Shown: in pieces, positions 7,989 through 23,168 of the stretch
Layout: each line of letters begins with the position of its first letter
Position numbering within the stretch: the first letter of the stretch is position 1
NCBI RefSeq assembly: GCF_030505195.1
Contig: NZ_CP129673.1
Span: 62,001 to 126,000 of the forward strand
From: Comamonas testosteroni
GTDB lineage: Bacteria; Pseudomonadota; Gammaproteobacteria; Burkholderiales; Burkholderiaceae_C
Direction of reading: 5' to 3'
Length of the DNA stretch: 64,000 nucleotides
Made by a program: the position numbers and the translations under genes
Notes under the pieces: generated by a model
Databases searched by the model: none
What the model saw: only the letters and a program-made list of their open reading frames with translations
What the model was told of the DNA's origin: nothing

Positions 7989-8146
7989 GTGTCGTGCTCC
8001 TTGTGATAGACGCACTGACGATATGGCTGGACCTTCAAAAAGCTTTACTAGATACGTGCCCATATTGGGCCATCTGAGCAACATTGAGCCGGGGCTTTTG
8101 CGATAAGCTGAAACCTCTCTTTGTTGCAGCCTCGGCTTCAACTTGA

Positions 8147-8177: not shown

Positions 8178-8206
8178 TTCCTTAACGTGCCTCTCGGCAC
8201 TTTCAA

Positions 8207-8263
8207 CCCACCTGGGGCATGTCTCCCAGATGGGGGTATTGCCCCTCAAACCGGAGCAATACC
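8207..8263 (+). promoter_or_regulatory. Two-hairpin leader, copy 1
   Basis: Hairpin A is CCCA-c-CTGGG, an 8-nt loop, CCCAG-a-TGGG. Hairpin B pairs GGTATTGC (8235-8242) perfectly with GCAATACC (8256-8263); the SD GGAG (8253-8256) is in its loop and the start codon follows at once. Confidence 0.75.
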
Positions 8264-8593
8264 ATGACTGCTATCACCTTCCTCTTCGTTCTGCTCTTGA
8301 TCATCGTAGCCCTCGGCTTCGCTCTCAAGCTTTTCGTTGAAGGTATGCGCGGCCTTACGGCTGAACTACTTAGCCAATTGTCGAAGGTTCAATCCTTTGA
8401 TAAGACGGCTTTCCTGAACGCGACCTTTTCATCCGTGAAAACCTCTGTTCAATCCTGCATTCAACTGTCATCGCACGTTACGCGCGGTGCCGTTGAAATG
8501 GCTTTCCCCGAGCCAATTCCAGTAGAGCCTGCTTTTGATTGGAGTGTCTATGACACTCCAGCTTGGCAGCGCAAGGGCATCCTTGTGTACTGA
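8264..8593 (+). CDS. Small membrane-anchored protein of unknown function
   Basis: A 109-residue protein with one strong N-terminal membrane helix (about residues 4-25, TFLFVLLLIIVALGFALKLF), then an amphipathic region and a proline-rich tail. The ATG at 8264 abuts leader hairpin B and has GGAG upstream. It is first in the recombination/DNA-metabolism block. No family recognised. Confidence 0.7.
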   Translation: MTAITFLFVLLLIIVALGFALKLFVEGMRGLTAELLSQLSKVQSFDKTAFLNATFSSVKTSVQSCIQLSSHVTRGAVEMAFPEPIPVEPAFDWSVYDTPAWQRKGILVY

Positions 8594-8641
8594 ACCGATT
8601 GCGCTGTCCTCGGATGGCGTTTCCCTGAAAGACGTTAATAG

Positions 8642-8699
8642 CCCACGGGCACACCAGCCCGTGAGGGTGAAGTGTGCCCAATCGAAATTGGAGTCCACC
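8642..8699 (+). promoter_or_regulatory. Two-hairpin leader, copy 2
   Basis: Hairpin A is CACGGGC/GCCCGTG (8644-8650 with 8657-8663) flanked by CCC and GGG. A smaller stem, CCAAT-cgaa-ATTGG (8678-8691), covers the first bases of the SD GGAG. Confidence 0.6.
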
Positions 8700-9704
8700 A
8701 TGTCTACACCCATCGCTCAAACAGCGAGCTTTCAAACCAGCACAATCTTTGGCATGCCAGAGATTGGCAATTCCGCGAAAACCATCGGTTTTGTGGATAT
8801 GTCCAATGCTTACATTCCCTCCGTCATGGCGGGCTTTGTGCATCGTCGTGAGTTCCTGCGTGAGGTTTTGGCCTTTCTCAACTCTCCTGACGGGGATGCC
8901 CTGTTTGTTACTGGTCCTACTGGATCGGGGAAAACATCAGGCATCCTGCAAATTCTTGGCACGCTCAACTGGCCTACACAACAAGTCACCGGCAACGGCA
9001 AGATGGAATTGTGTGACCTGGTTGGGCACCATGCCTTGGTCTCTGAAAAGCCTGGTGAAACCCCATCCATGAAATTCATGTATGGCCCACTGGCAATAGC
9101 AATGAGAGAAGGGCATGCCCTTCTAATCAACGAGGTGGATCTGATTGACCCTGCTGAGCTTGCTGGCCTGAACGATGTCCTTGAAGGGCGTCCTCTGGTC
9201 ATTGGCATGAATGGCGGTGAAATCATCAAGGCTCACCGCATGTTTCGCGTGATTGTTACGGGCAACTCGCGTGGCGCTGGTGATGTGTCTGGGCAATATC
9301 AAGGTGTTCAGATGCAGAACCTCGCGGCCATGGATCGCTATCGATTTACTGTTGTCTCTTATCCAGAGAAGGCAGTTGAGGAAGCGATAGTTACCAAAGC
9401 ATCACCGAAACTTCCAAAGCAAATTGTTGAGGGTATGGTTCGTCTGGCTGATGATGTGCGCAAGCTCTTCATGGGATCGGACGGACAAGGTGGCCAGCTG
9501 GCCATTACGTTCTCAACGCGCACGCTGGTTCGCTGGGCGAAGCTTTCAACGAAGTTCAAGGGTGCTCCTAACCCTCTGGGATATGCGCTCGATTTGGCAC
9601 TGCTCAATCGCGCGACACCCGAGGATGCCACTGCGATAACTCGCTTGGCCAAGGACATTTTTGGGGAGCAGTGGAAAGACGATACCCCGGCCACCCAGCC
9701 TTGA
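8700..9704 (+). CDS. AAA+ ATPase, MoxR/CobS-like
   Basis: A 334-residue AAA+ protein: Walker A is GPTGSGKT and Walker B is LLINEVDLID, followed by ELAGLNDVLEGRP, the arrangement of MoxR/CobS ATPases. VTGNSRG is the sensor I region. On SXT and IncA/C elements such genes are annotated cobS, but with no cobalamin genes around a role as a MoxR-type remodelling ATPase is likelier. Its natural partner is the VWA protein at 14768. The start at 8700 follows GGAG and leader copy 2; the upstream open frame overlaps the previous gene and is not used. Confidence 0.8.
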   Translation: MSTPIAQTASFQTSTIFGMPEIGNSAKTIGFVDMSNAYIPSVMAGFVHRREFLREVLAFLNSPDGDALFVTGPTGSGKTSGILQILGTLNWPTQQVTGNGKMELCDLVGHHALVSEKPGETPSMKFMYGPLAIAMREGHALLINEVDLIDPAELAGLNDVLEGRPLVIGMNGGEIIKAHRMFRVIVTGNSRGAGDVSGQYQGVQMQNLAAMDRYRFTVVSYPEKAVEEAIVTKASPKLPKQIVEGMVRLADDVRKLFMGSDGQGGQLAITFSTRTLVRWAKLSTKFKGAPNPLGYALDLALLNRATPEDATAITRLAKDIFGEQWKDDTPATQP

Positions 9705-9711
9705 GATCGCC

Positions 9712-10242
9712 ATGTCTCAAATCTTCCCTGGTCCAAAGATCAGTTGGAGCATGAAGGTGTTTACCACAGCCTCTGAAGCCAAGTTCATCGAGGTTGTGAG
9801 AAGCGCTCTCAAGAATGCAGCTCTGAAAATGGGCTGCGAGTCACCGATTGGAGATGAGCAGAATGTTGGCGTGCTCTTACGCGCTGGCGATTTGACTCTT
9901 TCCCTTTCGGGCAACACCCTAACGGGCAACTCGTTCAATTTCGTCTACCGAGACGGAGCTGGTGAGTTGCTTCCGAATGGGGATCACGCGCTCTTGTTGG
10001 CCTTGTTCTTCCTTCAGAGCGAGATCAACAAAACAGGCCTTGCAACGGATCTGATCTCCCTGAGTGACGATTCCGGCACATCCTATGCGTTCCACGTATT
10101 GGATGACTTGAAGCCACTCATGTTGGAGTGGGACATACCATGGGATGTTGTGAGATTGGATGCTGTGGCTCTTGGGCTTGCAGTGCCAATCTTCAACTTC
10201 ATGGATCTGTCCTGTGACGATACTGAGGACGCTTTTTTCTAA
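9712..10242 (+). CDS. Conserved hypothetical protein
   Basis: A 176-residue acidic soluble protein starting MSQIFPGPK and ending in an acidic tail (DDTEDAFF). It begins 7 nt after the AAA+ stop and lacks the two-hairpin leader, so it probably depends on translation of the AAA+ gene. No domain recognised. Confidence 0.65.
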
Positions 10243-10247
10243 CCAAA

Positions 10248-10309
10248 CCCAATGGGGGCTTCAACCCCCTGGCGGGGATGGCCTCTGCTTCACCAATTCG
10301 GAGGCCATC
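10248..10309 (+). promoter_or_regulatory. Two-hairpin leader, copy 3 (ssb)
   Basis: Hairpin A: CCC-aat-GGGGG, 6-nt loop, CCCCC-tggc-GGG. Hairpin B: GATGGCCTC (10277-10285) pairs over 9 bp with GAGGCCATC (10301-10309), burying the SD; ATG follows directly. Confidence 0.75.
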
Positions 10310-10942
10310 ATGGCATCAGTCAACAAGGTAATCATCGTCGGCAACCTGGGCAAAGATCCAGTTTGCCGCAACGGCAACAATGGCAGCGGCCAGCTTTTTG
10401 CGAACTTCTCCGTTGCCACGACAGAACACTGGACCGACCAGGCCTCGCAAGAGGCTAGGGAGCGCACAGAATGGCACTCGATTGTGCTGCGTGGCCGACT
10501 CGCTGAAATAGCGCGCGACTACCTGCACAAAGGCTCACAGGTTTATTTGGAAGGCACACTGCGCACGCGCAAGTGGGTCGATCAAGAAAACGGGGTTGAG
10601 CGCTTTATCACTGAGATTCACTGCGACAGCATGCAAATGCTGGGCAGCCCGAATCAAAGTTCCGGGGGGGCTCCAGCTCAGCAGAGCCATGCACACCAAC
10701 GTGCAGCGGCTCCAGCTCGTGCGCCTTCTCATGCAAGCAATGGTTATGCCCAACAGTCGCAATCTTCGTCTCGTCCCTCAGCTCGTGCTCCAGCACCAGC
10801 TCAAGGCCGTGGACAAGGATCGCAAGCTGGTGGGTCCACCAGAGCTGCTAATTCCCAACCCATTCGCGGACAAGGCGGTGGGGGAGGAAGAACTGACGAC
10901 GACATTCCGTTCGCTCGTCTTCACTACATGGCCGGTGGTTAA
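10310..10942 (+). CDS. ssb: Single-stranded DNA-binding protein
   Basis: A 210-residue SSB. Residues 1-110 are the OB fold ([43 protein letters not shown]). A long Q/A/S/P/G-rich linker follows. The acidic tip motif DDDIPF is present but not terminal: nine more residues (ARLHYMAGG) follow. In ordinary bacterial SSBs the tip ends in IPF and docks repair proteins. It sits before bet and exo, forming an ssb-bet-exo recombination module like that of SXT and IncA/C. Confidence 0.93.
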
Positions 10943-10963
10943 ACACTAGGTCCATTTCTGTAA

Positions 10964-11031
10964 CCCAACGGGGCGCTTGTATCCCCGGTGGGGGACATAG
11001 CGCCCAAATTGAATCGAGGTCACTATGTCCC
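10964..11031 (+). promoter_or_regulatory. Two-hairpin leader, copy 4 (bet), start codon inside the stem
   Basis: Hairpin A: CCC-aa-CGGGG, 9-nt loop, CCCCG-gt-GGG. Hairpin B pairs GGGACATAG (10992-11000) with CTATGTCCC (11023-11031); the ATG (11025-11027) and the next codon are within the stem and the SD GAGG is in the loop. Confidence 0.75.
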
Positions 11032-12056
11032 AAGAGCAAAGCTCGCAAAATGAATCAACACTGATGGGCCGCTTCGGCGCGCGCTTTGGTGTTGATCCTC
11101 ACAAGCTCTTCGATACCTTGAAGGCTGTTGCCTTCAGACAAAGAGAAGGGCATGCGCAGCCTACCAATGAGCAAATGATGGCTCTGATGATCGTGGCGGA
11201 GCAGTACGGTTTGAATCCCTTCTTGAAGGAGATTTACGCCTACCCAGACAAAAACAACGGGATCGTTCCTGTTGTTGGCGTCGATGGCTGGAGCAACATT
11301 GTCAACGCTCACCCTCAGTACGACGGCTTTGAAGTGGTTTATTCCGATTCCAAGGTTGAAGTAACGGGTGTGAATTTTCCAGTTCACGAGTGGATCGAAG
11401 TGGTCATACACCGTAAGGATAGGACCGTTCCCTCCCGTGTCCGTGAATTCATGGATGAGTGCTATCGCCCTCCAACTCAAAGGAATGGGGCGCACGGTGC
11501 CTATCAAATCAATGGCCCTTGGCAAACGCACGCTAGAAGGATGTTGCGCCATAAGGCTTTCATTCAGTGCGGGCGTCTGGCACTCGGCTTTACTGGAATC
11601 TTTGACCAGGATGAGGCAGAACGCATCATCGATGCTGATTCGAATGTGGTTGGAGCCTCCGTCAAGGTGGTGAAAACACAGGATGATCAACGTACTGCTA
11701 GCTCTGCTGAGAATGTGGCCAGCGCACAAGGGAATGCTCCCCCGCAGTTGACGCATGAACAACTGGAGCCGGTGCTACAGCAACTGCTGAATCGCACACT
11801 GCCAAATCAGACATGGAATGTCGCTCATCAATATGTTGAGCAACGCTTTTCAGGTGAAAACCTTGAACGAGCTAAGACCTTCCTGCATGACAAGCAGATG
11901 GAGCACATGCATGCGCCAGAGCAGGACTATGAAGCGATGCAGCAACGCAGAGCCAGTGGTCAGGTAGAACGCTCAGAACGTGTGATGCCACCACTTGATG
12001 ATCTTGTCCTGCCTCCAGGCGGGCTTGATTCTCAAGCTGAATCCAGCTTCTTCTAA
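11025..12056 (+). CDS. bet: Bet-type single-strand annealing recombinase (RecT/Bet family)
   Basis: A 343-residue protein. Residues about 20-200 match the lambda Bet/RecT family: QMMALMIVAEQYGLNPFLKEIYAYP, VVGVDGWSNIVNAHPQYDG and HARRMLRHKAFIQCGRLALGF. Lambda Bet is about 260 residues; the extra C-terminal part here is an extended tail with an acidic end. It anneals complementary strands on DNA resected by the exonuclease. It lies between ssb and exo. Confidence 0.93.
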   Translation: MSQEQSSQNESTLMGRFGARFGVDPHKLFDTLKAVAFRQREGHAQPTNEQMMALMIVAEQYGLNPFLKEIYAYPDKNNGIVPVVGVDGWSNIVNAHPQYDGFEVVYSDSKVEVTGVNFPVHEWIEVVIHRKDRTVPSRVREFMDECYRPPTQRNGAHGAYQINGPWQTHARRMLRHKAFIQCGRLALGFTGIFDQDEAERIIDADSNVVGASVKVVKTQDDQRTASSAENVASAQGNAPPQLTHEQLEPVLQQLLNRTLPNQTWNVAHQYVEQRFSGENLERAKTFLHDKQMEHMHAPEQDYEAMQQRRASGQVERSERVMPPLDDLVLPPGGLDSQAESSFF

Positions 12057-12071
12057 GGTGCTGGTTTTATC

Positions 12072-12100
12072 AACCCCGTGGGGAGAAATCCTCCGGGGTT
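12072..12100 (+). promoter_or_regulatory. Leader hairpin A, copy 5 (exo)
   Basis: AACCCC-gt-GGGG, 6-nt loop, CCTC-cg-GGGGTT. The outer arms pair over 7 bp. A second hairpin before the GTG start is not obvious in this copy. Confidence 0.6.
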
Positions 12101-12130
12101 TCTCTATTTCTTCAACAGAATGGAGTTCAT

Positions 12131-13141
12131 GTGAAATTCATTGACTTGATTCAAGGCTCTGAAGAGTGGCTTGCTTGGCGTAAAGGCGGCGTTACAGCAA
12201 CCGATGCGGCAGTGCTGGTCGATCAGTCTCCCTACAAGACCGAATGGCGCTTGTGGGCAGAGAAAACAGGGTATGCGGTCGAGCGAGATTTGAGCAGTAA
12301 TCCGTTCGTGAGGCATGGCCTTGCAATGGAGCCTGCTGCCCGAGCTGCTGCAGAGATCTATTTCGATGATCTCTTGCTGCCCATGTGTGCCCAGGCTTCG
12401 CACAACCCCTTGCTGAGGGCGTCTTTGGACGGACTCAACAAGGACAGTGAACCTGTGGAAATGAAGTGCCCATCAGAGGCTACCTGGATCGAGGTCACAA
12501 CGTTGCGTCAGAACAGTAAGGCTTTCAAGTTTTACTATCCTCAGGTGCAGCATCAGATCCTTGTTACAGGGGCCAAGAGAGGGTGGCTGGTTTTCTATTT
12601 TGATGGCCAAGTTGAAGTGTTCTGCATCCCTCGGGACCAGGCATTGATCTCTCAGATAGAGGGCGTTGCCCCAATCTTCTGGGATAAGGTGGTTAAGAGA
12701 CGAGAGCCGCAAAAGGACCCAGCGCGCGACCTCTACATCCCCCAGGGTGAAGAGATGGCCAGCTGGTTGTATCAAGCCGAGGAGTTCCGCTTGCTGCAGG
12801 GACAGATCTCGGAATTGGAAGAACGCCTAGAGGTGATGAAGGAGCGCCAGTCGGCCTCACGCGCTGCGATGCAGGGCATGATGGGCGATTACATGCACGC
12901 AGACTATTGCGGTGTCATGGTGACGCGCTATGTGCAGGTAGGGAAAATTGACTACGAGAAGCTGCTAGCCGACAAGTCTGCAGGCGTGACTCAACAGGAG
13001 ATTGACTCTTACCGACGAAAGTCAACCGAGCGATGCCGGGTTACTTTGACAAACGATATGGCACCACGCCTGATCGTTGACAAAGGGGTCACAGATCCCG
13101 TCAAGGACCTATCATTGGACGTTGAATCCTTTTACATTTAG
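12131..13141 (+). CDS. exo: YqaJ/lambda-type alkaline exonuclease
   Basis: A 336-residue nuclease of the YqaJ (lambda exonuclease-like) family. It opens with IQGSEEWLAWRKGGVTATDAA, has the catalytic SLDG (about 98-101) and the E-x-K motif VEMKCPS (about 110-116), then QVQHQ (about 139-143). The C-terminal third is a coiled-coil-prone helical region. The start is a GTG at 12131 with GGAG at 12122-12125. It would resect double-strand ends for Bet. Confidence 0.9.
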   Translation: MKFIDLIQGSEEWLAWRKGGVTATDAAVLVDQSPYKTEWRLWAEKTGYAVERDLSSNPFVRHGLAMEPAARAAAEIYFDDLLLPMCAQASHNPLLRASLDGLNKDSEPVEMKCPSEATWIEVTTLRQNSKAFKFYYPQVQHQILVTGAKRGWLVFYFDGQVEVFCIPRDQALISQIEGVAPIFWDKVVKRREPQKDPARDLYIPQGEEMASWLYQAEEFRLLQGQISELEERLEVMKERQSASRAAMQGMMGDYMHADYCGVMVTRYVQVGKIDYEKLLADKSAGVTQQEIDSYRRKSTERCRVTLTNDMAPRLIVDKGVTDPVKDLSLDVESFYI

Positions 13142-13157
13142 GGAAGTCTTTTTGGCA

Positions 13158-13185
13158 GGGGATTCGCGCAAGCGAGTCCCCTTCT
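13158..13185 (+). terminator. Probable intrinsic terminator after exo
   Basis: Stem GGGGATTCG/CGAGTCCCC (one T-G pair), 6-nt loop, followed by a weak T-rich stretch. It closes the first unit just before repeat copy 2. Confidence 0.55.
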
Positions 13186-13220
13186 GAAAAGCAGATTTTG
13201 TTCCCTCTGGGAGCGAAAGT

Positions 13221-13251
13221 GTGAGGTAGCTGGCTTCCTAAAACAAACAGC
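13221..13251 (+). promoter_or_regulatory. 31-bp repeat, copy 2
   Basis: GTGAGGTAGCTGGC followed by TTCCTAAAACAAACAGC. It lies after a terminator-like hairpin and 11 nt before the leader of the DUF3150 gene; the sequence from here to the leader is almost the same as at 21547. Confidence 0.6.
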
Positions 13252-13262
13252 ATTTTTATCAA

Positions 13263-13318
13263 CCCTTGGGGTGTGTCACACCCTTGGGGGAGTGGTGCAC
13301 CTCTTTTCGGAGAGCACC
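13263..13318 (+). promoter_or_regulatory. Two-hairpin leader, copy 6
   Basis: Hairpin A: CCC-ttg-GGGTG, 5-nt loop, CACCC-tt-GGG. Hairpin B: TGGTGC with GCACCA just before the ATG, SD GGAG in the loop. Confidence 0.7.
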
Positions 13319-14683
13319 ATGACACAAACCAATTCCACCAAGATCAACCATCTGACTCAGCTGTGTGTTGTACATGCAGACTTTGACATTTGGAGCGGGC
13401 AGGTTCGCCTGACCGCTGACGATCTGAAGCTTGGAGCTGGGGGAGAGATCCCACCTGAAAAAATTGCCCAACTGGGTACTAAGAAGATCTGCGATCCCGC
13501 ACAGCTGAAAGGCTTTCATCGGGTCAAAGCAGAGACTCGACGCACATTGCTGCGCATCGGCATGAAGTTCATGGACGGCGTAGCAATTCCATTGACCAAG
13601 ATGGATGAGGTGTGCAAAAAAATGGGCGAAGTGCAAACTGAGTTCGATGCACTGCGCACCACTTTCATCGCAAACTACAACGCTGCGATAGATAGTTGGT
13701 GCAAGGAAAATCCTCAATATGAGACGGCAATCCGCTCAGGCGCGCTTCCACAATCCGTTGTGGAAAAGCGCCTCGGGTTCGATTTCCAGATCTTCAAGAT
13801 CGCGCCTACTGATGATGCAGAGCTGAGCACTCGCCTTGAAGAAAAAGTTCATGGCCTGGGCGATGACCTCATCAACGAACTGATAGAGGAAGCAGATAAG
13901 TTCTATGAAGACCGCTTGCTGGGCCGCGACAAATGCGGCATTGGCACCAAGCAGACTTTGCAGAACCTGCGAGACAAGCTCGATGGGCTGTCGTTCCTCA
14001 ACTCAAAAATCAAACCGCTTGTCGATCTTCTCAATGAAACGTTGAATGGGTACAAAACGTATGCTGTTGGCCGCGATGTCACAGGTCCGTTTTTCCATCA
14101 GCTGACCGCCACAATGCTCATCCTGAGCAGCAAGGCGCGAATTGAGCAATATCTCAACGGAGCGATTTCAGTCAAGGCAGAAGCGGCGACTCTGGAGGCC
14201 TCAGCCTCCCAGAATCGAAGCTACGCCTCTGACTCTTCAACTGCGGAGATGCAACCGCAATCTGCAGAGGGTGATCTGTTTACCTCCGTAGACAGCGCAC
14301 TAGCACCGGCACAAGCGTCCAGCAATCCAGCTGATGCGTTTATTGCCGACCTCGACCGCTTCTTTGGCACGAACGCGCGCACAGAGACATCGATTCAGCC
14401 CCAGGCTGCAGAGGTGGTTCATCGTGTCGATGTGGAAGTGCTTGAAGCTCCTGCAGGAACTTCGTCAGAAGCCATCGAGCCTGCACAAGGCTCAGTGGTT
14501 ATCGACGTTGAAGCCACTTTTGTCCCTACTGATTCTGTTGCGCAAGCACAGACTGAGGGCCAGCAGGCAGTTGTAGTGGGAGTTGAGGAGGAGCAAGCAG
14601 AAGTTGAAGCTGGAAACAGCAACAACGATGCCTCTTTCCAGCTTGCCACCATTGGTGATGACGACGAAGACGGCTTTTTCTAA
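13319..14683 (+). CDS. DUF3150-family protein
   Basis: A 454-residue protein. The N-terminal half (FDIWSGQVRLTADDL, GGEIPPEKIAQLGTKKICDP) matches the DUF3150 family found next to cobS/cobT-like genes on SXT and IncA/C elements; the middle is helical. The last 150 residues are low-complexity and acidic, ending DDDEDGFF, much like the acidic tail at 10242. The start at 13319 abuts leader hairpin B. Function unknown; its constant company with AAA+/VWA genes suggests a shared complex. Confidence 0.75.
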   Translation: MTQTNSTKINHLTQLCVVHADFDIWSGQVRLTADDLKLGAGGEIPPEKIAQLGTKKICDPAQLKGFHRVKAETRRTLLRIGMKFMDGVAIPLTKMDEVCKKMGEVQTEFDALRTTFIANYNAAIDSWCKENPQYETAIRSGALPQSVVEKRLGFDFQIFKIAPTDDAELSTRLEEKVHGLGDDLINELIEEADKFYEDRLLGRDKCGIGTKQTLQNLRDKLDGLSFLNSKIKPLVDLLNETLNGYKTYAVGRDVTGPFFHQLTATMLILSSKARIEQYLNGAISVKAEAATLEASASQNRSYASDSSTAEMQPQSAEGDLFTSVDSALAPAQASSNPADAFIADLDRFFGTNARTETSIQPQAAEVVHRVDVEVLEAPAGTSSEAIEPAQGSVVIDVEATFVPTDSVAQAQTEGQQAVVVGVEEEQAEVEAGNSNNDASFQLATIGDDDEDGFF

Positions 14684-14709
14684 GCAGTCCTAAGCGCATC
14701 ATTTTTAAC

Positions 14710-14780
14710 CCAAGGGGAATCCTAGCCCCTTGGGGCTGGGTTCCCCATACCTCTTGAGGGAAGACCCATGGCCAAACAGA
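14710..14780 (+). promoter_or_regulatory. Two-hairpin leader, copy 7
   Basis: Hairpin A: CCAAGGGG/CCCCTTGG (14710-14717 with 14726-14733), perfect. Hairpin B: TTCCC (14741-14745) with GGGAA (14758-14762), extended by GGG/CCC to the edge of the ATG at 14768. Confidence 0.7.
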
Positions 14781-16573: not shown

Positions 16574-16638
16574 AGGTGGCCAACCTTATGTGCTCGAAAG
16601 AGTGCATTTCAGCCGCTGGGGAAACCCAGCAATTTCAA

Positions 16639-16696
16639 CCCTAGCGGGGTCGCACCCCCGGTAGGGGGGCGCTCCGCAAAATTTCGGAGTTCCCAC
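16639..16696 (+). promoter_or_regulatory. Two-hairpin leader, copy 8
   Basis: Hairpin A: CCC-tag-CGGGGT, 3-nt loop, ACCCC(c)G-g-TAGGG. Hairpin B: CTCCG (16672-16676) with CGGAG (16685-16689), so the SD is base-paired. A GCTGGG-gaaa-CCCAGC hairpin lies just upstream (16614-16629). Confidence 0.7.
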
Positions 16697-16936
16697 ATGC
16701 AAAACGTCATCACTATCGCTCAAGACAACAACGCTCAGGCTATTGCTGAAGCAGATTGGGGTTGCGAGCTGGCTAGTGCTTTTGAAGTCAAGGAGTCGTA
16801 TTGCGTTTCTCTGCTTCAAAAGGGTGAGCGCGATCTCACTTTCCACTACACCATGGCCACGGATCTGAAAGCAGCTCGTGCTGAAGCTCTCGACGCCTAC
16901 CCAGGCGCAGAACTCATCGCGGGAACTGTTTACTGA
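16697..16936 (+). CDS. Small hypothetical protein (79 aa)
   Basis: A 79-residue protein beginning MQNVITIAQDN with alternating beta-like and helical stretches. It has its own two-hairpin leader and SD (GGAG). No family recognised; flanked by the VWA gene and another small leader-controlled gene. A GC-rich hairpin followed by TTTT (about 16955-16983) downstream may attenuate transcription. Confidence 0.65.
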   Translation: MQNVITIAQDNNAQAIAEADWGCELASAFEVKESYCVSLLQKGERDLTFHYTMATDLKAARAEALDAYPGAELIAGTVY

Positions 16937-16995
16937 ATCGCAGCCATGTGACTGACCTCACGCCCTAAAGGGTGTGGGGTTTTGTCTTCCATCAA

Positions 16996-17048
16996 CCCAG
17001 CCGGGGCACACCCGGTAGGGCGCTGCTCCAGCACGTTTTGGAGCAGCC
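16996..17048 (+). promoter_or_regulatory. Two-hairpin leader, copy 9
   Basis: Hairpin A: CCC-ag-CCGGG, loop gcaca, CCCGG-ta-GGG. Hairpin B: GCTGCTCC (17022-17029) with GGAGCAGC (17040-17047), a perfect 8 bp that completely pairs the SD, ending one base before the ATG. Confidence 0.8.
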
Positions 17049-17396
17049 ATGAGCACTTTCGTCATTTACTCGGCCAACGAAAACGCTCTTACCGGAGCGG
17101 GCTACTGGAACGATAAAGATGGATGGTCAGTCCACGGGAATGCCACCGTGTACGTCAAAAAGAAGCTTGATATGCGCCTCCCTCATTCTGTGGGCGGGGA
17201 TGCACGTTGGCTCAAGGAAGAGGGCAAGAAGCTCCTGCACCCCATCAGTCAGCCCATTACCAAGGGCTTGGCCAAGGTGCGCAGGAAGCATGTGCAGACG
17301 GCTCAAACCCGAAGCATTCAAGTTAAGCCCATTGCAACGCCTGGATCTCAGGTGGCTGCATTTCAACAGCTGCAGATGGACCTCATCGTCAGCTAA
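17049..17396 (+). CDS. Hypothetical protein (115 aa)
   Basis: A 115-residue basic protein. The N-terminal half is beta-rich with many aromatic residues (YWNDKDGWSVHG) and the C-terminal half is lysine/arginine-rich. Preceded by the clearest copy of the two-hairpin leader. No family recognised. Confidence 0.65.
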   Translation: MSTFVIYSANENALTGAGYWNDKDGWSVHGNATVYVKKKLDMRLPHSVGGDARWLKEEGKKLLHPISQPITKGLAKVRRKHVQTAQTRSIQVKPIATPGSQVAAFQQLQMDLIVS

Positions 17397-17399
17397 TCA

Positions 17400-17456
17400 C
17401 CCATTGGGGCAGCTCGCCCCATCTGGGGCGACTGTCTCTCAATCAAGAGGCAGATC
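17400..17456 (+). promoter_or_regulatory. Two-hairpin leader, copy 10
   Basis: Hairpin A: CCC-at-TGGGGC, loop agctc, GCCCCA-tct-GGG. Hairpin B: CTGTCTC (17432-17438) with GAGGCAG (17447-17453), one T-G pair; the SD is in the 3' arm. Confidence 0.7.
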
Positions 17457-19304
17457 ATGGATTTTCAGTACTACCCAACAGGCGCATACACAACGGCTTT
17501 GCTGTGGCATCAATTCCAACGGCCCATCGTCCATGTGTGTGATCCCAGTGCAGGTAAGGGTGCGTTGTTTCGACACGCTGAGAACGGGTTCGAGGAACTG
17601 CCGGAAGGCACTGAAGTTCCTTGGTTCGATCCAAGCCTGGAAGAGCGCTTTGATCGTCGTCGTTGGTCCTATGACCAGCGCGACAAATACAAATCTTCGT
17701 CCCGAAAGAAATCGGCTGTCGAAATCGATATCAAGCACCATGCGAGCTTGCGCGAGCTGGGTGTAACGGTTCTAGGACATGACTTCTTAGAAGTTCAGTC
17801 TCTGGCCTCCGTCACACAAGTGATCATGAACCCACCCTTTAACCAGGGTGCGGAACATGTTCTTCATGCTTGGGATCTGGTTTACGACGCTGAGATCAGT
17901 GCGTGCATCAATGCTCAGACCATCAAGAATCCATACACGCGCGAGCGTAAACGCTTGGTGGAGCTGATCGAGAAGCATGGCAGTGTGTCATTCCATCAAG
18001 ATCAATTCGTTGATGATGTGGAACGTAAAACCGATGTTGAGGTAGCTATTGTCTATTTGAATAAAGTCCCGGAAGCATTTGCTGATGTGGACAATATTCT
18101 GAAGAGGCTAAAAGTGGGAGATAACTTGAGTCGTCATGAATTTGACCCTCATATCTGCAAAACTCTCGCTCTTCCAGCTAACTTCATCGAGAACACCTAC
18201 TATCACTTTAGCGCGGCTATCGAAGCAGCGCGACAATCATCTGAGTTTGAAGCCATCTTCGAGCACGCATCAGATAAATTGGGAGTGACGCTAGACGAAA
18301 TGCAGTCAAAGGGGGTAGGGTCTGACTTCAGACCAGATCCGATTGATATTCGAAAAAAAGCTATGGAGCTATTTTCGAAGAGGTATGAAGATCTCAAGCG
18401 GAAAGCTTGGGCACAGATTATCAGATCAACACTTTTAACTGAAAAATTGTCGAACCACGCAAGACGTAAGCTCGAAGCGGATGCTGAGACAATATACGCA
18501 CTTGAGTTTTCGATATCGAATGTTCACGGGTTCCTCGCTGGAATGATTCAGTCGATGGGATCTATCTACACCGATATGGTTCTGGGATTGTTTGATACGA
18601 TTATTGAACGCAGCTCTGACAACGTTGTGTTTTACAAGTCGTGGAAGTCTAACCAGAAGCACAAGGTAGGAATGCGTATTCGTAAGAAGCGCTTCATTAT
18701 TCCGCGTTTCAATACGTGGAGTAGTGGAACTCTGCATTATGAATGCGAACAGTTCCTGGGAGACATTGACAAAGTATTCGGATATCTGAACGGTATTTCC
18801 GGTAATTACTACGGACTTCGCCAATCATTTAAACAAAATAATGTCAATACCTCTGAACGGTTTACGTCAGAGTTCTTTGAATATCGTTACTACAAGGGAA
18901 CCGGCACGCTGCACTTCTTCCCCAAGAGTGACGAAGTTGTTGATCGCTTGAATCGCTTCGTTGGCCGCATACGCCAATGGCTTCCCCAGGACATGGGTGA
19001 TGCAAATGAGCATTTCAAGAAGCAATATGAACAAGCTGAGAAATATTCTGATGACTATCTCAAAGCTTTTAGCAGAGGCAAAAGCCATAGCTACTACGAA
19101 CGCAATCCGGTCTACGCACTGACTTCAGGACGCGATTCGGAAAACGTTGCCGAGCGGATGGAAAAAGCCATAGATGAAGTTCTTGCGCAGGCAGGGATGG
19201 AGTGTGGCCCGATCCTCCAAGCACCCGCTGAGGTACAGACCGTCGCAGCTTTGCCCGCACCAGCAATGGGGCAGGCCGAGCAGCTGGATCTATTGGCGGC
19301 ATAA
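17457..19304 (+). CDS. N6-adenine-type DNA methyltransferase with DUF4942-like domain
   Basis: A 615-residue protein. The N-terminal domain has SAM-binding motif I (CDPSAGKGAL, about 28-37) and catalytic motif NPPF (about 124-127) of an amino-methyltransferase. The region from about 250 to 470 (YHFSAAIEAAR, FYKSWKSNQKHKVGMRIRKKRFIIP) matches DUF4942, usual in plasmid and phage methyltransferases. No restriction gene is adjacent, so it is probably an orphan that protects the incoming plasmid or marks DNA. Codon use in the second half is more A+T-rich than neighbours. Confidence 0.82.
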   Translation: MDFQYYPTGAYTTALLWHQFQRPIVHVCDPSAGKGALFRHAENGFEELPEGTEVPWFDPSLEERFDRRRWSYDQRDKYKSSSRKKSAVEIDIKHHASLRELGVTVLGHDFLEVQSLASVTQVIMNPPFNQGAEHVLHAWDLVYDAEISACINAQTIKNPYTRERKRLVELIEKHGSVSFHQDQFVDDVERKTDVEVAIVYLNKVPEAFADVDNILKRLKVGDNLSRHEFDPHICKTLALPANFIENTYYHFSAAIEAARQSSEFEAIFEHASDKLGVTLDEMQSKGVGSDFRPDPIDIRKKAMELFSKRYEDLKRKAWAQIIRSTLLTEKLSNHARRKLEADAETIYALEFSISNVHGFLAGMIQSMGSIYTDMVLGLFDTIIERSSDNVVFYKSWKSNQKHKVGMRIRKKRFIIPRFNTWSSGTLHYECEQFLGDIDKVFGYLNGISGNYYGLRQSFKQNNVNTSERFTSEFFEYRYYKGTGTLHFFPKSDEVVDRLNRFVGRIRQWLPQDMGDANEHFKKQYEQAEKYSDDYLKAFSRGKSHSYYERNPVYALTSGRDSENVAERMEKAIDEVLAQAGMECGPILQAPAEVQTVAALPAPAMGQAEQLDLLAA

Positions 19305-19309
19305 ATCAA

Positions 19310-19363
19310 CCCATCAGGGGCTAACAGCCCCTTGGGGATGTTGGCCCCGTATACGAGGACACC
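19310..19363 (+). promoter_or_regulatory. Two-hairpin leader, copy 11
   Basis: Hairpin A: CCC-atc-AGGGGCT, loop aac, AGCCCCT-t-GGG (19310-19335). The second hairpin is weak in this copy. Confidence 0.65.
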
Positions 19364-19669
19364 ATGCAAATCGAACGACTCTACCGAATGATCAAGAATG
19401 CACGTATCGTGCGCTTGAACGGACAGATGGCAATCACCAAGGGGATCGGTACGGGCATCAAGAACAATCGCAGCCTCTCGCGGCACTTGCGAATCGATGT
19501 CTCTGACGAACCCCACGGCTGGCTCTTCTTTGAAGAGGAAACCATCTCGAAAGCACGCATAGCAGGGAATACCGTCGAGCTGAAAAGCGACGATGGCGAG
19601 AACTACACGCTATGTCTCTACCCATGGCGACAGAAGGCTGCTGCAGCCGAAGCTCTGTCAGTGAACTAA
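19364..19669 (+). CDS. Hypothetical protein (101 aa)
   Basis: A 101-residue protein, probably mostly beta strand (GWLFFEEETISKARIAGNTVELKS). It has its own leader and is the last gene before a terminator. No family recognised. Confidence 0.65.
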   Translation: MQIERLYRMIKNARIVRLNGQMAITKGIGTGIKNNRSLSRHLRIDVSDEPHGWLFFEEETISKARIAGNTVELKSDDGENYTLCLYPWRQKAAAAEALSVN

Positions 19670-19677
19670 AGAAATTA

Positions 19678-19704
19678 CACCAGGCGCTCACAAGCGCTCT
19701 GGTG
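19678..19704 (+). terminator. Strong hairpin after the 19364 gene
   Basis: CACCAG-GCGCT-caca-AGCGC-t-CTGGTG, followed by AAATTT rather than a clean T-run. It may stabilise the 3' end or work with the terminator at 19788. Confidence 0.5.
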
Positions 19705-19787
19705 AAATTTCGTCACAGCGCCCAAAGAGGGCAACTTGAGCCACGTCGTTGAACAGCGATCACCACTAGACTCCCGAAGAAGAGCAC

Positions 19788-19830
19788 AGATGCAAGGCAG
19801 CAAGCCAAGCTTTGCATCTGCGCTTTTTTT
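19788..19830 (+). terminator. Intrinsic terminator
   Basis: Stem AGATGCAA/TTGCATCT (19788-19795 with 19812-19819), then GCGC and seven T. It ends the unit just before repeat copy 3. Confidence 0.85.
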
Positions 19831-19848
19831 GTCCCTCGTGGGCAATGT

Positions 19849-19879
19849 GTGAGGTAACTGGCCTCCATAAATAAACAGC
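19849..19879 (+). promoter_or_regulatory. 31-bp repeat, copy 3
   Basis: GTGAGGTAACTGGC followed by CTCCATAAATAAACAGC. It follows a terminator by 19 nt and precedes a 220-nt hairpin-rich stretch and the gene at 20156. Confidence 0.6.
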
Positions 19880-19889
19880 ATCTCTAGTG

Positions 19890-20078
19890 CTCGGCATGAC
19901 CGAGACACCACTTAACGCTGAATGCGATCTCCCATCGCATCCCGGCAACATATGTCAGCCTCGTGAACTTGCTTCACGGTCGAGCTGACTTGTACCAGGT
20001 CCGATCTCAACTCAAAAACTATAGCGTCCATGACGCTTCAGTCTTGCGAGTTGCGACGACAACTTGATGCTCGATCAA
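19890..20078 (+). other. Array of short hairpins, candidate structured RNA
   Basis: This 190-nt non-coding stretch holds five local inverted repeats: CTCGG/CCGAG (19890), ATGCGAT/ATCGCAT (19922), CGTGAA/TTCACG (19962), AGCGTC/GACGCT (20023) and TTGAT/ATCAA (20064). Four have 5-nt loops. It lies between repeat copy 3 and a leader, so it would be transcribed as a 5' UTR or small RNA. It is not a tRNA: there is no T-arm consensus and no 7-nt anticodon loop. Confidence 0.4.
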
Positions 20079-20096
20079 TGAGTGTCTTTCAACAAT

Positions 20097-20155
20097 CCGC
20101 CAGGGTTTAGCCACCCTAGCGGGTGCGCCTTGGCAATTTCTACGGAGATTCGCCT
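20097..20155 (+). promoter_or_regulatory. Two-hairpin leader, copy 12
   Basis: Hairpin A: CCGC-c-AGGGT, loop ttagcc, ACCCT-a-GCGG (20097-20122). The SD CGGAG is 8-12 nt before the ATG. Hairpin B is not clear. Confidence 0.65.
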
Positions 20156-20446
20156 ATGCTAAAAATCAATGTGGCACTGCTTCTGCTGCCATACATCTTC
20201 ATCCTGCTTGCAGGAACTTTCCAACTGGTAACGATGACGGTGAAGGCCATTGCGTCTTCGCTTCGTCTGACTTTCCTTGTAACCGGTGTCGTGGTTCCTT
20301 ACTACGCCATCGAAGTAGCCCAAGCCGTTGTTGACTCTTTCGCAGCTGGAGACACTGCGACTGCCATCGGTGACATCATCGCCTTTGCAGTGATGCTTGA
20401 GGGTGCAGTGACAGTTCTCAAAACTCGTGAGAAAATGGCTTCATAA
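20156..20446 (+). CDS. Small integral membrane protein (96 aa)
   Basis: A 96-residue hydrophobic protein with two or three membrane helices (about 4-26, 34-52, 68-86). The ATG at 20156 follows CGGAG and the leader; the longer upstream reading runs through hairpin A and is rejected. It is followed by a second tiny membrane protein, perhaps a partner. Confidence 0.65.
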   Translation: MLKINVALLLLPYIFILLAGTFQLVTMTVKAIASSLRLTFLVTGVVVPYYAIEVAQAVVDSFAAGDTATAIGDIIAFAVMLEGAVTVLKTREKMAS

Positions 20447-20482
20447 GCCGTAGCTGACAACCCATCTACGAAAGGTCACACC

Positions 20483-20602
20483 ATGAATCACCTCTTCAGT
20501 CCCCTCGCCATCAGCATGCTCTGCATTGGAGTGTTCCTGATTGTTGGATCGATCGGCGCTCAGCGTCAGATCGATGAAGAGAAGCGTGAAGGTAAAAAAT
20601 AA
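20483..20602 (+). CDS. 39-residue single-pass membrane peptide
   Basis: ATG at 20483 (AAAGG about 8 nt upstream) opens a 39-residue frame: one hydrophobic segment (about residues 7-26, including SMLCIGVFLIVGS) and a charged C-terminal tail (RQIDEEKREGKK). It lies 36 nt after the preceding membrane-protein gene and directly before a terminator, which supports a real small gene. Confidence 0.5.
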   Translation: MNHLFSPLAISMLCIGVFLIVGSIGAQRQIDEEKREGKK

Positions 20603-20634
20603 AGCGTAGTTGACGTTACGCAGCAAAAAAGACT

Positions 20635-20660
20635 GGCCACTCTCTTGGGAGTGGCCTTTC
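20635..20660 (+). terminator. Intrinsic terminator
   Basis: Stem GGCCACTC/GAGTGGCC (20635-20642 with 20649-20656) followed by TTTCTT. Confidence 0.85.
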
Positions 20661-20745
20661 TTATTTCTGAACCGACTTGCCCATGCATGAAGAGCCTGCG
20701 CTCACAGTGCACGTCGATCACCATCTCGGGCATACATACACTCTC

Positions 20746-21084
20746 ATGAAATCCTACAGTCAACTGAAAGCTGAGCTTGCCCAGCTAGACAAGCAAATTG
20801 CACAAGCTCGCGCCTCGGAAGAGACTGACGCTCTTATCCAGGTAAGAGAGCTGGTCCAGTCTTTCGGCTTCACAGTGCATCAAGTGTTCCCACTCCCGCA
20901 GCCAGCTAAGAAGGAACCCGTGGCCAGGTACTACGACCCAGACACTGGCCAGTCTTGGAGCGGTCGCGGCAAGCCACCAAGATGGATAGATGGCAAGGAC
21001 CGCAGCCTATTCGAAATCGATAGACGACCAACCTACGACTTCAATGCCCCAAGGGATGAACGCAACCCGTTTCCAGTCCAGTAG
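20746..21084 (+). CDS. H-NS family DNA-binding protein
   Basis: A 112-residue protein: N-terminal coiled coil (SQLKAELAQLDKQIAQAR), linker, and a C-terminal DNA-binding domain YYDPDTGQSWSGRGKPPRWIDG, the W-x-G-R-G-x-P-P-x-W signature of beta-proteobacterial H-NS. Such plasmid H-NS proteins silence A+T-rich acquired DNA and reduce the plasmid's effect on the host. No strong SD is seen; the ATG at 20746 is chosen because the coiled coil begins there, but an ATG at 20683 is possible. A second paralogue lies at 25069. Confidence 0.82.
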   Translation: MKSYSQLKAELAQLDKQIAQARASEETDALIQVRELVQSFGFTVHQVFPLPQPAKKEPVARYYDPDTGQSWSGRGKPPRWIDGKDRSLFEIDRRPTYDFNAPRDERNPFPVQ

Positions 21085-21219
21085 CCTGCCTGAAGGCTAC
21101 TCAGTAATAGCTTGATCTATTTTTTAGGTCTGCCCAAATAGGGCAGCTTCATGGTGATGCCTTTTCCTGTCTATGCAGACAATGCACTTACGCGATACAG
21201 CAAAGACAGGAGAGAACTG

Positions 21220-21477
21220 ATGAAGGAAGTCCCGTTCTTCATTGAACGCAACACGGAGCAATGGCAAGCGATGTGGGGAGGGTTATCCGAGGCAGAATTG
21301 AATTCTGGCGATCATGTTTGCGAGAACCAAGAAACTGGTGATTGCTGGCACTACATGGGAAGTGACAGCAACGGCCATCATTTTAGGCATCGTAAGCATC
21401 CCAAAACGGCGAAACGCGAAACCTTGATCGTCAAATCGAACGTCACTCCAGTTCAAGAACCGGAATTGGCCCACTAG
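21220..21477 (+). CDS. Hypothetical protein (85 aa)
   Basis: A small protein rich in H, W, C and E (CENQETGDCWHYMGSDSNGHHFRHRKH), suggesting possible metal binding. The ATG at 21220 has AGGAG 6 nt upstream; another in-frame ATG at 21151 follows a CTGCCC/GGGCAG hairpin and would add 23 residues. No family recognised. Confidence 0.55.
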   Translation: MKEVPFFIERNTEQWQAMWGGLSEAELNSGDHVCENQETGDCWHYMGSDSNGHHFRHRKHPKTAKRETLIVKSNVTPVQEPELAH

Positions 21478-21490
21478 ACCTAAGACCCAT

Positions 21491-21516
21491 TACCAATGCC
21501 CGCATTGGTATTAGTA
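21491..21516 (+). terminator. Hairpin, probable terminator
   Basis: TACCAATG-cccg-CATTGGTA is a perfect 8-bp stem followed by a moderately T-rich stretch, 14 nt after the preceding stop and just before repeat copy 4. Confidence 0.55.
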
Positions 21517-21546
21517 ATGTGGTTTTGTTCCTTCTTGGAACGAAAA

Positions 21547-21577
21547 GTGAAGTAGCTGGCTTCCTTAAACAAACAGC
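21547..21577 (+). promoter_or_regulatory. 31-bp repeat, copy 4
   Basis: GTGAAGTAGCTGGC followed by TTCCTTAAACAAACAGC. From here to the leader (gcatttt-atcaaccc) the sequence matches copy 2 almost base for base. Confidence 0.6.
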
Positions 21578-21587
21578 ATTTTATCAA

Positions 21588-21643
21588 CCCTTGGGGTGCA
21601 TGCACTCCCATGGGTGGCGTGCCCTCAATTGATTAAGGCACGC
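21588..21643 (+). promoter_or_regulatory. Two-hairpin leader, copy 13
   Basis: Hairpin A: CCC-t-TGGG-GTGC, AT, GCAC-T-CCCA-t-GGG (21588-21614). Hairpin B: GCGTGCC (21617-21623) with GGCACGC (21637-21643), perfect, ending right at the ATG. Confidence 0.8.
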
Positions 21644-22531
21644 ATGTTTTCAAACTCGATTTGTTCCTACCCAAACCGGGGAAACTATGGTGACAACAAG
21701 TACCGTGGCAACTGCTCAGGGTACGTCATAAAGGACTTCATCGAGTCCTATCTAAAAGATCAGAATGGCCTCGTTGCAGATCCAAGCATTGGAGGCGGAA
21801 CGAGCGCCGATGTAGCCGCTTCACTTGGAGTGCGCTTCAAGGGCACAGACCTTCATCAGGGCTTTAATTTGCTGACTGATGACTTCTCTTCCTTCTTGGG
21901 AGAGAAAGCGAATCTGATCTGGTGGCACCCAGCTTACTGGGACATGATTCAGTATTCAGGAAGTCAATGGGGCAATGAACCACACAAATGGGACATGAGC
22001 CGCATGAAGCTAAATGAATTTGTTGAGTCGTTAGAGCTTGCTGTCATGAACATTCATGATGCCTGCGAAGTAAAAGGACACTATGGGATATTGATGGGCA
22101 ATCTCCGCAGAAACGGGGATTACTACAATCTCTCAAGTCTTGTGGAGCGTATCGCTCCAGGCAAACTGGTCGATGAAATCATCAAAGTGCAGCACAACTG
22201 CATTAGTGATTCACGACAATATTCAGGCAACATTGTTCGTATTGCGCACGAAAAGCTTTTAGTTTTTCGTCGTGATGCAAGTCACTCGTTGATCCTGCTA
22301 TCAAATTTCCATCGAAAAGCAGTCAATATGATTGCCACTACATGGAAAGCAGCTGTTCGTAGAGTCCTGCAAGGGAAACCCTCTATGGATTTAAACCAGA
22401 TTTACGAAGCTATTGAGCCATTTGCACAGTTCAGAGAGAACGTACATTGGAGGGCGAAAGTCCGACAGGTATTGCAAGACGCAAAATACTTCGAACGTCT
22501 GGAAACTGGTGTTTACAAGCTAGCCTTGTGA
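21644..22531 (+). CDS. Predicted DNA methylase with HPAYWD catalytic-region variant
   Basis: A 295-residue protein. ADPSIGGGTSADVA (about 45-58) is motif I of an SAM-dependent methyltransferase. Where N-x-P-P-Y/F would be expected it has WWHPAYWDMIQYSG (about 88-101), as in a group of predicted site-specific DNA methylases. The last 80 residues resemble a winged helix (VHWRAKVRQVLQD). The ATG at 21644 abuts leader hairpin B; the longer reading translates the leader and is rejected. Whether it methylates DNA or RNA, or is active at all, is open. Confidence 0.65.
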   Translation: MFSNSICSYPNRGNYGDNKYRGNCSGYVIKDFIESYLKDQNGLVADPSIGGGTSADVAASLGVRFKGTDLHQGFNLLTDDFSSFLGEKANLIWWHPAYWDMIQYSGSQWGNEPHKWDMSRMKLNEFVESLELAVMNIHDACEVKGHYGILMGNLRRNGDYYNLSSLVERIAPGKLVDEIIKVQHNCISDSRQYSGNIVRIAHEKLLVFRRDASHSLILLSNFHRKAVNMIATTWKAAVRRVLQGKPSMDLNQIYEAIEPFAQFRENVHWRAKVRQVLQDAKYFERLETGVYKLAL

Positions 22532-22540
22532 ATTTTTCTA

Positions 22541-22602
22541 CCCTAAGGGGGCTATGCCTCCTAACGGGGGCATGGCCTTCATTTTTGGAGTGTGGCCATG
22601 GC
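22541..22602 (+). promoter_or_regulatory. Two-hairpin leader, copy 14, start codon inside the stem
   Basis: Hairpin A: CCC-ta-AGGGGG, loop, CCTCCT-aac-GGG. Hairpin B: CATGGCC (22571-22577) with GGCCATG (22594-22600); the ATG at 22598 is the end of the 3' arm and the SD TGGAG is in the loop. Confidence 0.7.
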
Positions 22603-23104
22603 AATGATTCCCTCAATCCACAAACCGGAACTGGGGCAAATGTCGTTTGATTTTCTGGATCAAACGATGACTTCTCAGCAATATTCATACAGTGAACATG
22701 GCAAATCATATTTGTCCTTGAAGACCTGCAATAAGAATGTTGAAAGCCTCATAAATAGCTTGTCGCTTGATTTCGATATCTGCGCACCAGAGACAGGGGC
22801 TTATGTTCAAGAAACCTCAGAGCACGATGAAGTCGATGAAGAGAACTTAGACAATACGGAGAAATTCGTATGGTCTGATGATGACATCGATAAATTGCGC
22901 ACAGCGTTTTTTGATGAAAATATTCGATTGCTAGGTGATGGGCGGACAAGCCCTGAAACCAGGCAAGAGAACTACGAATGGCTAATGTCAGACGAAATAC
23001 ATCCGTTTTCGTTCCTCGTACTCTGCCGTGAAGAAATGCTGTCCCCTGACCGCATCCGTGAAGGAGTTCAAGTTGTCATGCGTAAGCTTGGCTACCTGAA
23101 CTAA
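22598..23104 (+). CDS. Hypothetical acidic protein (168 aa)
   Basis: A 168-residue acidic protein with an unstructured-looking N-terminal half and a helical C-terminal domain (DDDIDKLRTAFFDENIRLLGDG). The start at 22598 is base-paired in the leader; a second ATG at 22604 is possible. No family recognised. Confidence 0.6.
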   Translation: MAMIPSIHKPELGQMSFDFLDQTMTSQQYSYSEHGKSYLSLKTCNKNVESLINSLSLDFDICAPETGAYVQETSEHDEVDEENLDNTEKFVWSDDDIDKLRTAFFDENIRLLGDGRTSPETRQENYEWLMSDEIHPFSFLVLCREEMLSPDRIREGVQVVMRKLGYLN

Positions 23105-23111
23105 ATCAAAA

Positions 23112-23138
23112 CCCTGCCAGGGATAAGTCCCTTGCGGG
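23112..23138 (+). promoter_or_regulatory. Leader hairpin A, copy 15 (primase-like gene)
   Basis: CCC-tGCc-AGGGA, loop taag, TCCCT-tGC-GGG. In this copy hairpin A is about 100 nt from the start codon and is followed by a long palindrome instead of a start-adjacent hairpin B. Confidence 0.6.
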
Positions 23139-23168
23139 ACTACTCCTTGGTTCCACTGGTGTGGGGGT

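Follow-up and report, generated by a model that had tools for sequence, protein, structure and literature searches.

Leaders of the recombination block

The 64,000-nucleotide stretch of DNA analyzed here (the window) covers positions 62,001 to 126,000 of the second contig (NZ_CP129673.1, 175,835 bp; C2) of a Comamonas testosteroni genome, a contig judged to be a plasmid from its likeness to known plasmids. Within the window lies a block with AAA+, ssb, bet, exo, DUF3150, VWA, DUF4942 and methylase genes, assigned by DNA similarity, the annotation of a relative and Pfam; structured leaders in front of most of the block's genes are the subject of this work. The closest named relatives of the block are three Comamonas plasmids (identity 98.0–98.6%, covering 100%, 68% and 50% of the block), and C. 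testosteroni JL40 is also a near relative (VWA identity 100%). Sequence comparison makes the block a homologue of the recombination block carried by IncC plasmids: identity to the IncC-type records listed is 48–50% over 81–85% of the length for DUF3150 and about 55% for VWA.

Folding of each window leader indicates that most form two adjacent hairpins, not one. Hairpin 1 has the layout CCC-nn-stem-loop-stem-nn-GGG; hairpin 2 comes next, with the Shine–Dalgarno sequence (SD) in its 3′ arm, and the start codon follows. The geometry of 66 parsed leaders places the beginning of hairpin 2 at 0–4 nt past hairpin 1 in most and its end mostly a few nt from the start codon, for a leader of about 60–70 nt. 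Among 324 non-redundant leaders drawn from five alignments, 314 terminate on ATG, and an SD-like motif is present within the final 20 nt of 311, the latter a raw count without a shuffled baseline for the motif. The fixed position relative to the start codon and the location of the SD inside hairpin 2 argue for translation as the controlled step.

A preliminary description of this DNA had listed 15 such leaders. Its layout and coordinates hold, although it captured half of the structure, namely hairpin 1, and missed both hairpin 2 and the alternative pairing treated below. A covariance model of the two hairpins (R1, see below) recovers 13 of the 15 at E ≤ 1, six of them seeds of the model and seven not, all on the sense strand and all inside the block; no further match at E ≤ 1 occurs anywhere else in the window. 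A fourteenth (20091) is recognized by eye, and the fifteenth (23112) contains only hairpin 1. A loose CCC/GGG text pattern was dropped as proof of a family, as its excess over shuffled windows is only modest (30 matches on the plus and 29 on the minus strand, some of them overlapping double counts, against 13–27, mean 19.1, on one strand of 20 Markov-shuffled windows).

All leaders lie on the plus strand. That of the first gene of the block (109 aa, no Pfam family) spans 8203–8266 (R1 52.5 bits, seed), with the opening CCC (CCC0) at 8207 and hairpin 2 ending at the ATG at 8264. It is followed by the leaders of the AAA+ ATPase gene (8638–8702; ATG 8700; AAA_5/CbbQ_C by Pfam; 13.9 bits, E 0.28), of ssb (10244–10312; 43.9 bits, seed; annotation of the relative NZ_CP101744), of bet (10960–11027; ATG 11025; 25.1 bits; DNA similarity to annotated bet genes), and of a lambda-exonuclease-family gene with a GTG start at 12131 (12070–12131; annotation of a relative), which has the lowest score of the 13 (12.8 bits, E 0.56) and, together with 8638, forms the weakest pair. 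Leaders with higher scores precede the DUF3150 gene (13259–13321; 40.1 bits, seed), the VWA-domain gene (14705–14770; ATG 14768; 45.9 bits, seed), a 79 aa gene of unknown function (16635–16699; ATG 16697; 44.7 bits, seed), a 115 aa gene of unknown function (16992–17051; ATG 17049; 24.8 bits) and the DUF4942 gene (17396–17459; ATG 17457; 40.9 bits, seed; Pfam). The distal part of the block contributes the leaders of a 101 aa gene (19306–19366; ATG 19364; 24.8 bits), of the DNA methylase gene (21584–21646; ATG 21644; N6_N4_Mtase by Pfam; 18.8 bits) and of a 168 aa gene (22537–22600; ATG 22598; 28.4 bits).

Two elements depart from this pattern. The leader of a 96 aa gene (20091–20158; ATG 20156) is divergent: fitted by eye and by folding, it has a CCG/CGG outer stem and gives no R1 match at E ≤ 1. 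At 23112–23139 the text pattern finds a hairpin-1-like element, unparsed and without R1 match, some 120 nt from the start of a toprim gene (ATG 23235). It is not a full family member, and the primase-like gene drops out of the list of leader genes on which the preliminary description had placed it. Between 23112 and 23235 a separate long inverted repeat (TTCATTAAATCCCTGTACAGGGCTTTAATGAA) follows the hairpin-1-like element in place of hairpin 2.

Spread of the leaders across mobile elements

The model R1 was built from 18 seeds, of which six are from the window, four from IncC, three from R997 and five from a Vibrio plasmid. These were taken from 22 of 66 leaders that passed a selection by geometry, and they supersede a first MAFFT alignment (A1, 30 leaders) in which hairpin 2 was misaligned. 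The 66 are those that could be parsed among 69 (20 of 24 IncC, 10 of 13 R997 and 24 of 28 Vibrio starts, plus 15 from the window), starts without visible hairpins having been left out. The E-values of R1 are rough, as its calibration was short. Three alignments of matches were analyzed further: A6, from loci without seeds (146 rows from 25 loci, 142 usable, 135 after de-duplication); A7, with seeds included (96 rows, 90 usable, 86 after de-duplication); and A8, found by scanning genomes with the model (68 rows, 62 usable, 58 after de-duplication).

Two-hairpin leaders are also seen before most genes of the IncC block, of R997 (which we take to be an SXT/R391-family element) and of a Vibrio harveyi plasmid. 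R1 gives further matches in Aeromonas elements and 15 in an unannotated stretch of a Methylomonas plasmid (E ≤ 1). Run over 53 of 80 loci fetched by the VWA protein, it yields 390 matches at E ≤ 0.1, with two on the minus strand among the 300 listed. The hosts among the matches listed include Alcanivorax, Pseudomonas, Azomonas, Methylobacter, Thiocapsa, Lamprobacter and Marinobacterium, and many loci have a match spacing like that of R997. Of 369 genomes sampled evenly across the class, 26 (the window's own counted) match at E ≤ 1e-4. At the loci from this genome scan, which by their gene content appear to be conjugative elements, leaders also precede RadC, DUF6573, DUF6094, DUF3577, RecT and ArdC-like genes and, by eye, a single-strand-binding protein gene; some of these loci have VWA-type genes. 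The equivalent block of an IncT plasmid has no leaders, either by folding or by R1 at E ≤ 1. Several genes of that IncT block (locus L010, 6767–19380, minus strand) have instead a repeated AT-rich leader motif of their own, of the ATTAAATATATAAACTTAT type.

The contig itself has a second cluster of leaders outside the window, at about 12.6–17 kb of C2 (locus L105, 4641–8981). The leaders there stand before genes without known function and before the gene of a 572 aa protein whose matches to DndC/PRK06850 models score under the cut-offs. On contigs of same-genus genomes (loci L101 and L103), leaders are seen by eye before unknown genes near a DUF6094-like methyltransferase.

Conservation of the pairs was counted in the 146 matches from the 25 non-seed loci, whose alignment is fitted to the two-hairpin (OFF) structure and is biased to that extent. 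Of the cells at OFF pairs, 78.4% are paired against 65.0% after shuffling, and double-changed cells number 476 against 230.5. The two outer C-G pairs of hairpin 1 are near-invariant (137/146 and 135/146). Rfam 15 gives no match in the window or in the IncC (L002), R997 (L007) and Vibrio (L008) loci at gathering scores, nor in 8100–23400 at E ≤ 1. The proposal that a conserved RNA fold stands before most block genes, which would imply shared post-transcriptional control, finds support in the non-seed relatives, the pair counts and the G.U excess described below. The idea that the regulon is plasmid-specific has to be given up: the same leaders are found in IncC, SXT/R391-family, Vibrio, Aeromonas and Methylomonas elements and at further loci.

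A predicted alternative helix between the two hairpins

From 5′ to 3′, the leader can be divided into CCC0, a (the G-run and the 5′ part of the hairpin-1 loop), b1 (a C-run), b2 (GGG), c (the anti-SD arm), d (the SD) and the AUG. The predicted OFF fold would comprise CCC0:b2 and a:b1 as hairpin 1 and c:d as hairpin 2, with the SD hidden. What is new here is a leader-specific complementarity of a, in the 5′ arm and loop of hairpin 1, to c, which makes up the 5′ arm of hairpin 2. This complementarity gives a second fold able to free the SD. In this ON fold a and c would form a helix closed off by a small b1:b2 hairpin, while CCC0 and the SD would remain unpaired.

The pairing of a with c is specific to the leader. 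It was computed against a permutation control that pairs the a of one leader with the c of another and so keeps composition; R1 does not contain this pairing. Own a:c energy is −11.13 kcal/mol versus −7.24 permuted in the 66 parsed leaders (z −13.7) and −12.04 versus −7.83 in the 135 of A6 (z −21.1), with z of −17.0 for the 86 of A7 and −13.3 for the 58 of A8; in none of the four sets did any of 5000 permutations reach the observed value. The same holds within the window (13 leaders, z −4.1), IncC (z −6.5) and Vibrio (z −8.5), each at 0/5000. A contiguous a:c helix of at least 8 bp is present in 69 of 144 own pairs against 8.4% of mismatched ones, and one of at least 10 bp in 32 of 144 against 1.9%. 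When the hairpin-1 loop and 3′ arm take the place of a, z is −1.2.

Examples in the window are the leaders at 8638, 13259, 19306 and 22537. At 8638, GGGCACAC (8647–8654) can pair with GTGTGCCC (8672–8679); at 13259 a helix of 12 bp joins 13268–13279 to 13292–13303; at 19306, GGGGCTAACA (19317–19326) pairs with TGTTGGCCCC (19339–19348) in the minimum-free-energy (MFE) fold itself; and at 22537 a:c and b1:b2 together make an alternative hairpin of 15 bp in total (22547–22561 with 22566–22580). The bet leader can pair GGGCGCT (10971–10977) with AGCGCCC (10999–11005), and both OFF and ON folds were computed for the VWA leader.

The kind of mismatch bears on whether RNA or DNA folds. With registers chosen on Watson–Crick pairs only, the a:c helix computed in 219 of 247 leaders has 195 G.U and 21 A.C oppositions, while permuted means are 68.6 and 30.4 in 111.6 helices. 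G.U is stable in sense-strand RNA and would read A.C on the other strand, so the G.U excess fits RNA. Among the mismatches of hairpin 2, C opposite A is the most frequent (74 cells). As we read it, a C in c would match a at the cost of the A of the SD, and a U in c would pair with the SD and give G.U with a. A compromise of this kind is expected if c serves both a and the SD.

The predicted order of stability was computed for the same folds. In complete leaders the MFE fold is OFF in 197 of 235 and ON in 32. When the RNA is cut off behind c, 97 of 235 leaders have ON as their MFE fold, versus 9.5% of 1407 chimeras (neither set of 235 de-duplicated). In the 66 parsed leaders, paired nucleotides in the SD region number 7.1 in OFF and 5.0 in ON.

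In our view these data make each leader probably a bistable attenuator of translation, acting in cis on an early gene of a mobile element. The OFF fold would block translation and the ON fold permit it, and we infer that the RNA would switch between them in cells. Each of the six segments would be complementary to the next, in a chain fixed at one end by the SD (d GGAG, c CUCC, a GGGG, b1 CCCC, b2 GGG, CCC0), and such a chain would account for the CCC-nn-GGGG...CCCC-nn-GGG layout. During transcription hairpin 1 would form first, ON would be preferred in many leaders once c has emerged, and OFF would prevail at equilibrium once d is made; initiation would then be largely confined to nascent mRNA, unless a factor freed CCC0 or opened hairpin 1. 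Because ON can be the MFE fold after c, the path from hairpin 1 through ON to OFF is open to many leaders during transcription. We consider it possible, and propose only tentatively, that the leaders are self-timed switches, the genes being translated mainly from fresh mRNA while the leader passes through a ribosome-accessible metastable state before it locks shut.

Several observations weigh against the bistable attenuator. For R997 alone the a:c signal is z −3.2, with the observed value reached by 5 of 5000 permutations. When a is reversed a weaker signal remains (z −4.4, −3.4 and −5.4); shared composition therefore accounts for part of what is seen with a:c. Own c is the top partner of a in just 8 of 66 leaders and its median rank is within the best 9–10% in A6 and A7: the match is real, not exclusive. 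Some leaders pair poorly, among them several from IncC and 20091, where the best inter-arm helix has only 6 bp. Covariation in a fixed a:c register is weak because the register varies among leaders, and per-leader energies and longest helices were used in its place. The helices of OFF have no strong G.U preference (G.U:A.C 80:47 in hairpin 1 and 102:82 in hairpin 2, without a permuted baseline), and the excess of G.U in a:c may owe part of its size to one position, the fixed A of the SD. As for stability, OFF exceeds ON by a median 7.1 kcal/mol (interquartile range 3.6–10.0; 24 of 66 within 5), so ON would be rare without a trigger or kinetics. The ON predictions release the SD just partly, in some leaders not at all, and in 138 of 235 RNAs ending after c the MFE fold is hairpin 1 and not ON, which closes the proposed path to them.

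Competing explanations and known systems

A promoter-like box of 29 nt (AGGTAGCTGGCYTCC..AAACAAACAGCA, at most 2 mismatches) lies on the plus strand at 8150–8178, with copies at 13224, 19852 and 21550, all upstream of leader genes; shuffling gave 0 matches in 100 windows against these four. A similar box occurs five times in the IncC block (L002). Inverted repeats (TTTTGTTCC..GGAACGAAAA type) lie just upstream of boxes at about 13195–13225 and 21520–21550 in the window, and a similar one precedes an IncC box (L002, about 3544–3568). An identity as AcaCD site finds no support, the box being unlike the sequences in Table 1 of PMC4207636, which are mostly TGCCC-A/T-rich-GGGCA.

The same bistable fold could have another trigger. 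One possibility, though not one we would favor, is an activator or repressor acting in trans (a protein or small RNA of the element or its host) that binds hairpin 1 or the U-Y-A-A-CCC flank and switches every leader at the same time. Conservation extends past the fold into the 5′ flank: of 264 leaders, 89% have A at −1, 76% have A at −2 and 81% have U or C at −3, with G in no more than 10% from −10 to −1. The outer C-G pairs of hairpin 1 are near-invariant, and freeing of CCC0 would release the SD through the relay. The chain of pairings also accounts for that near-invariance, and the wide range of hosts and elements speaks against an element-specific factor. No trans regulator was identified among the two sought, CsrA and ProQ (CsrA is absent from the genome and the single ProQ is chromosomal), and no small-RNA search was run; neither protein, as a plasmid-coded regulator, is found on the plasmid. 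An upstream ribosome is an unlikely trigger. In such a scheme termination at the preceding gene would open CCC0 and hairpin 1, and translation of each gene would license the next; indeed an open reading frame (ORF) stops within 160 nt upstream in 194 of 264 leaders, the distance being at most 30 nt in 130 of these and the stop abutting CCC0 in 21. But a stop at most 10 nt upstream of CCC0, a distance set by the size of the ribosome footprint, or overlapping the leader is present in just 51 of 264, about a fifth, and the leaders at 13259 and 21584 lie just after promoter-like boxes with the nearest upstream ORF ending more than 100 nt away. Nor does a short SD-led ORF generally supply the stop: one ends near CCC0 in 22 of 324 leaders and in 5 of the 93 without an upstream gene, and a leader peptide was rejected as a general feature.

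Other explanations do without a second fold. The predominance of OFF as the predicted equilibrium fold (197/235) would suit a static attenuator, with hairpin 2 merely lowering translation, hairpin 1 merely shielding or stabilizing the 5′ end and a:c functionless. We consider this improbable, as neither hairpin needs the a:c match, yet it is present leader by leader in three alignments with a G.U:A.C ratio well over the permuted one. Hairpins repeated between genes of operon-like blocks recall the RNase III sites of phage T7, where similar hairpins lie between genes. The tie to the start codon and the SD within the 3′ arm make a processing or stability element (an RNase III or RNase E site, or 5′-end protection) very unlikely here. 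A fold of single-stranded DNA, such as a promoter active on entry, had been left open in the preliminary description and would agree with the early-type functions of the genes; it is disfavored by the 195 to 21 excess of G.U over A.C in a:c, which fits sense-strand RNA, and by the tie to ATG, and we give it a very low probability. Chance GC hairpins or intrinsic terminators, for which one could cite that the loose text pattern is just modestly commoner than in shuffled windows, are refuted for practical purposes by the placement, conservation and covariation of the leaders; the five U of an intrinsic terminator follow hairpin 1 in just 2 of 324.

Comparison with known systems sets the bistable attenuator in context. 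In attenuators of the erm/cat type mutually exclusive hairpins hide or free the SD, under the control of a leader peptide and a stalled ribosome. The present leaders likewise have the SD within a predicted hairpin and, in their pairing potential, an alternative helix exclusive with it, but they are without a general upstream ORF (5/93). The hok, AapA1 and MS2 maturation genes have metastable mRNA leaders whose folding order decides translatability; folding order would do the same here, across a block with similar leaders rather than in single genes. With riboswitches the leaders share two alternative folds in a 5′ leader. They differ in that no conserved aptamer was seen: conservation is restricted to pairing runs, the SD and a short flank, and Rfam has no match.

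A translational attenuator upstream of bet in SXT/R391 elements is attributed to Garriss et al. (2013). PMC4542580, a review, reports it as a strong attenuator in SXT that is present in IncA/C as well, where it was then untested. From its place, this attenuator is presumably one member of the leader family. Position and gene agree, and the R997 bet leader (L007:5453–5519) is two-hairpin, a likeness that is built in because it was a seed; non-seed matches stand at the same place before bet in other loci, e.g., L100:4249–4315 (41.4 bits). The difference is one of extent, as PMC4542580 mentions a single attenuator ahead of bet, whereas here a family precedes most block genes in many elements and has an alternative helix. 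In the literature covered, which included few subscription papers, neither a multi-gene leader family nor an alternative helix appears beyond the bet attenuator reported in PMC4542580.

Both IncC plasmids and SXT/R391 elements play an important part in carrying multidrug resistance. In such elements the leaders would act as a natural relay of six segments, with branch migration transmitting a 5′-end event to the SD. If the self-timed switch is true, SSB, annealase, exonuclease, methylase and anti-restriction proteins would be made in a burst at entry or induction and be silent later, at a level set for each gene by pairing strength and without a regulator protein. A layer shared by ssb, bet, exo, VWA/AAA+, RadC, ArdC-like, DUF6573, DUF6094 and DUF3577 genes across mobile elements would amount to a common control of early expression.

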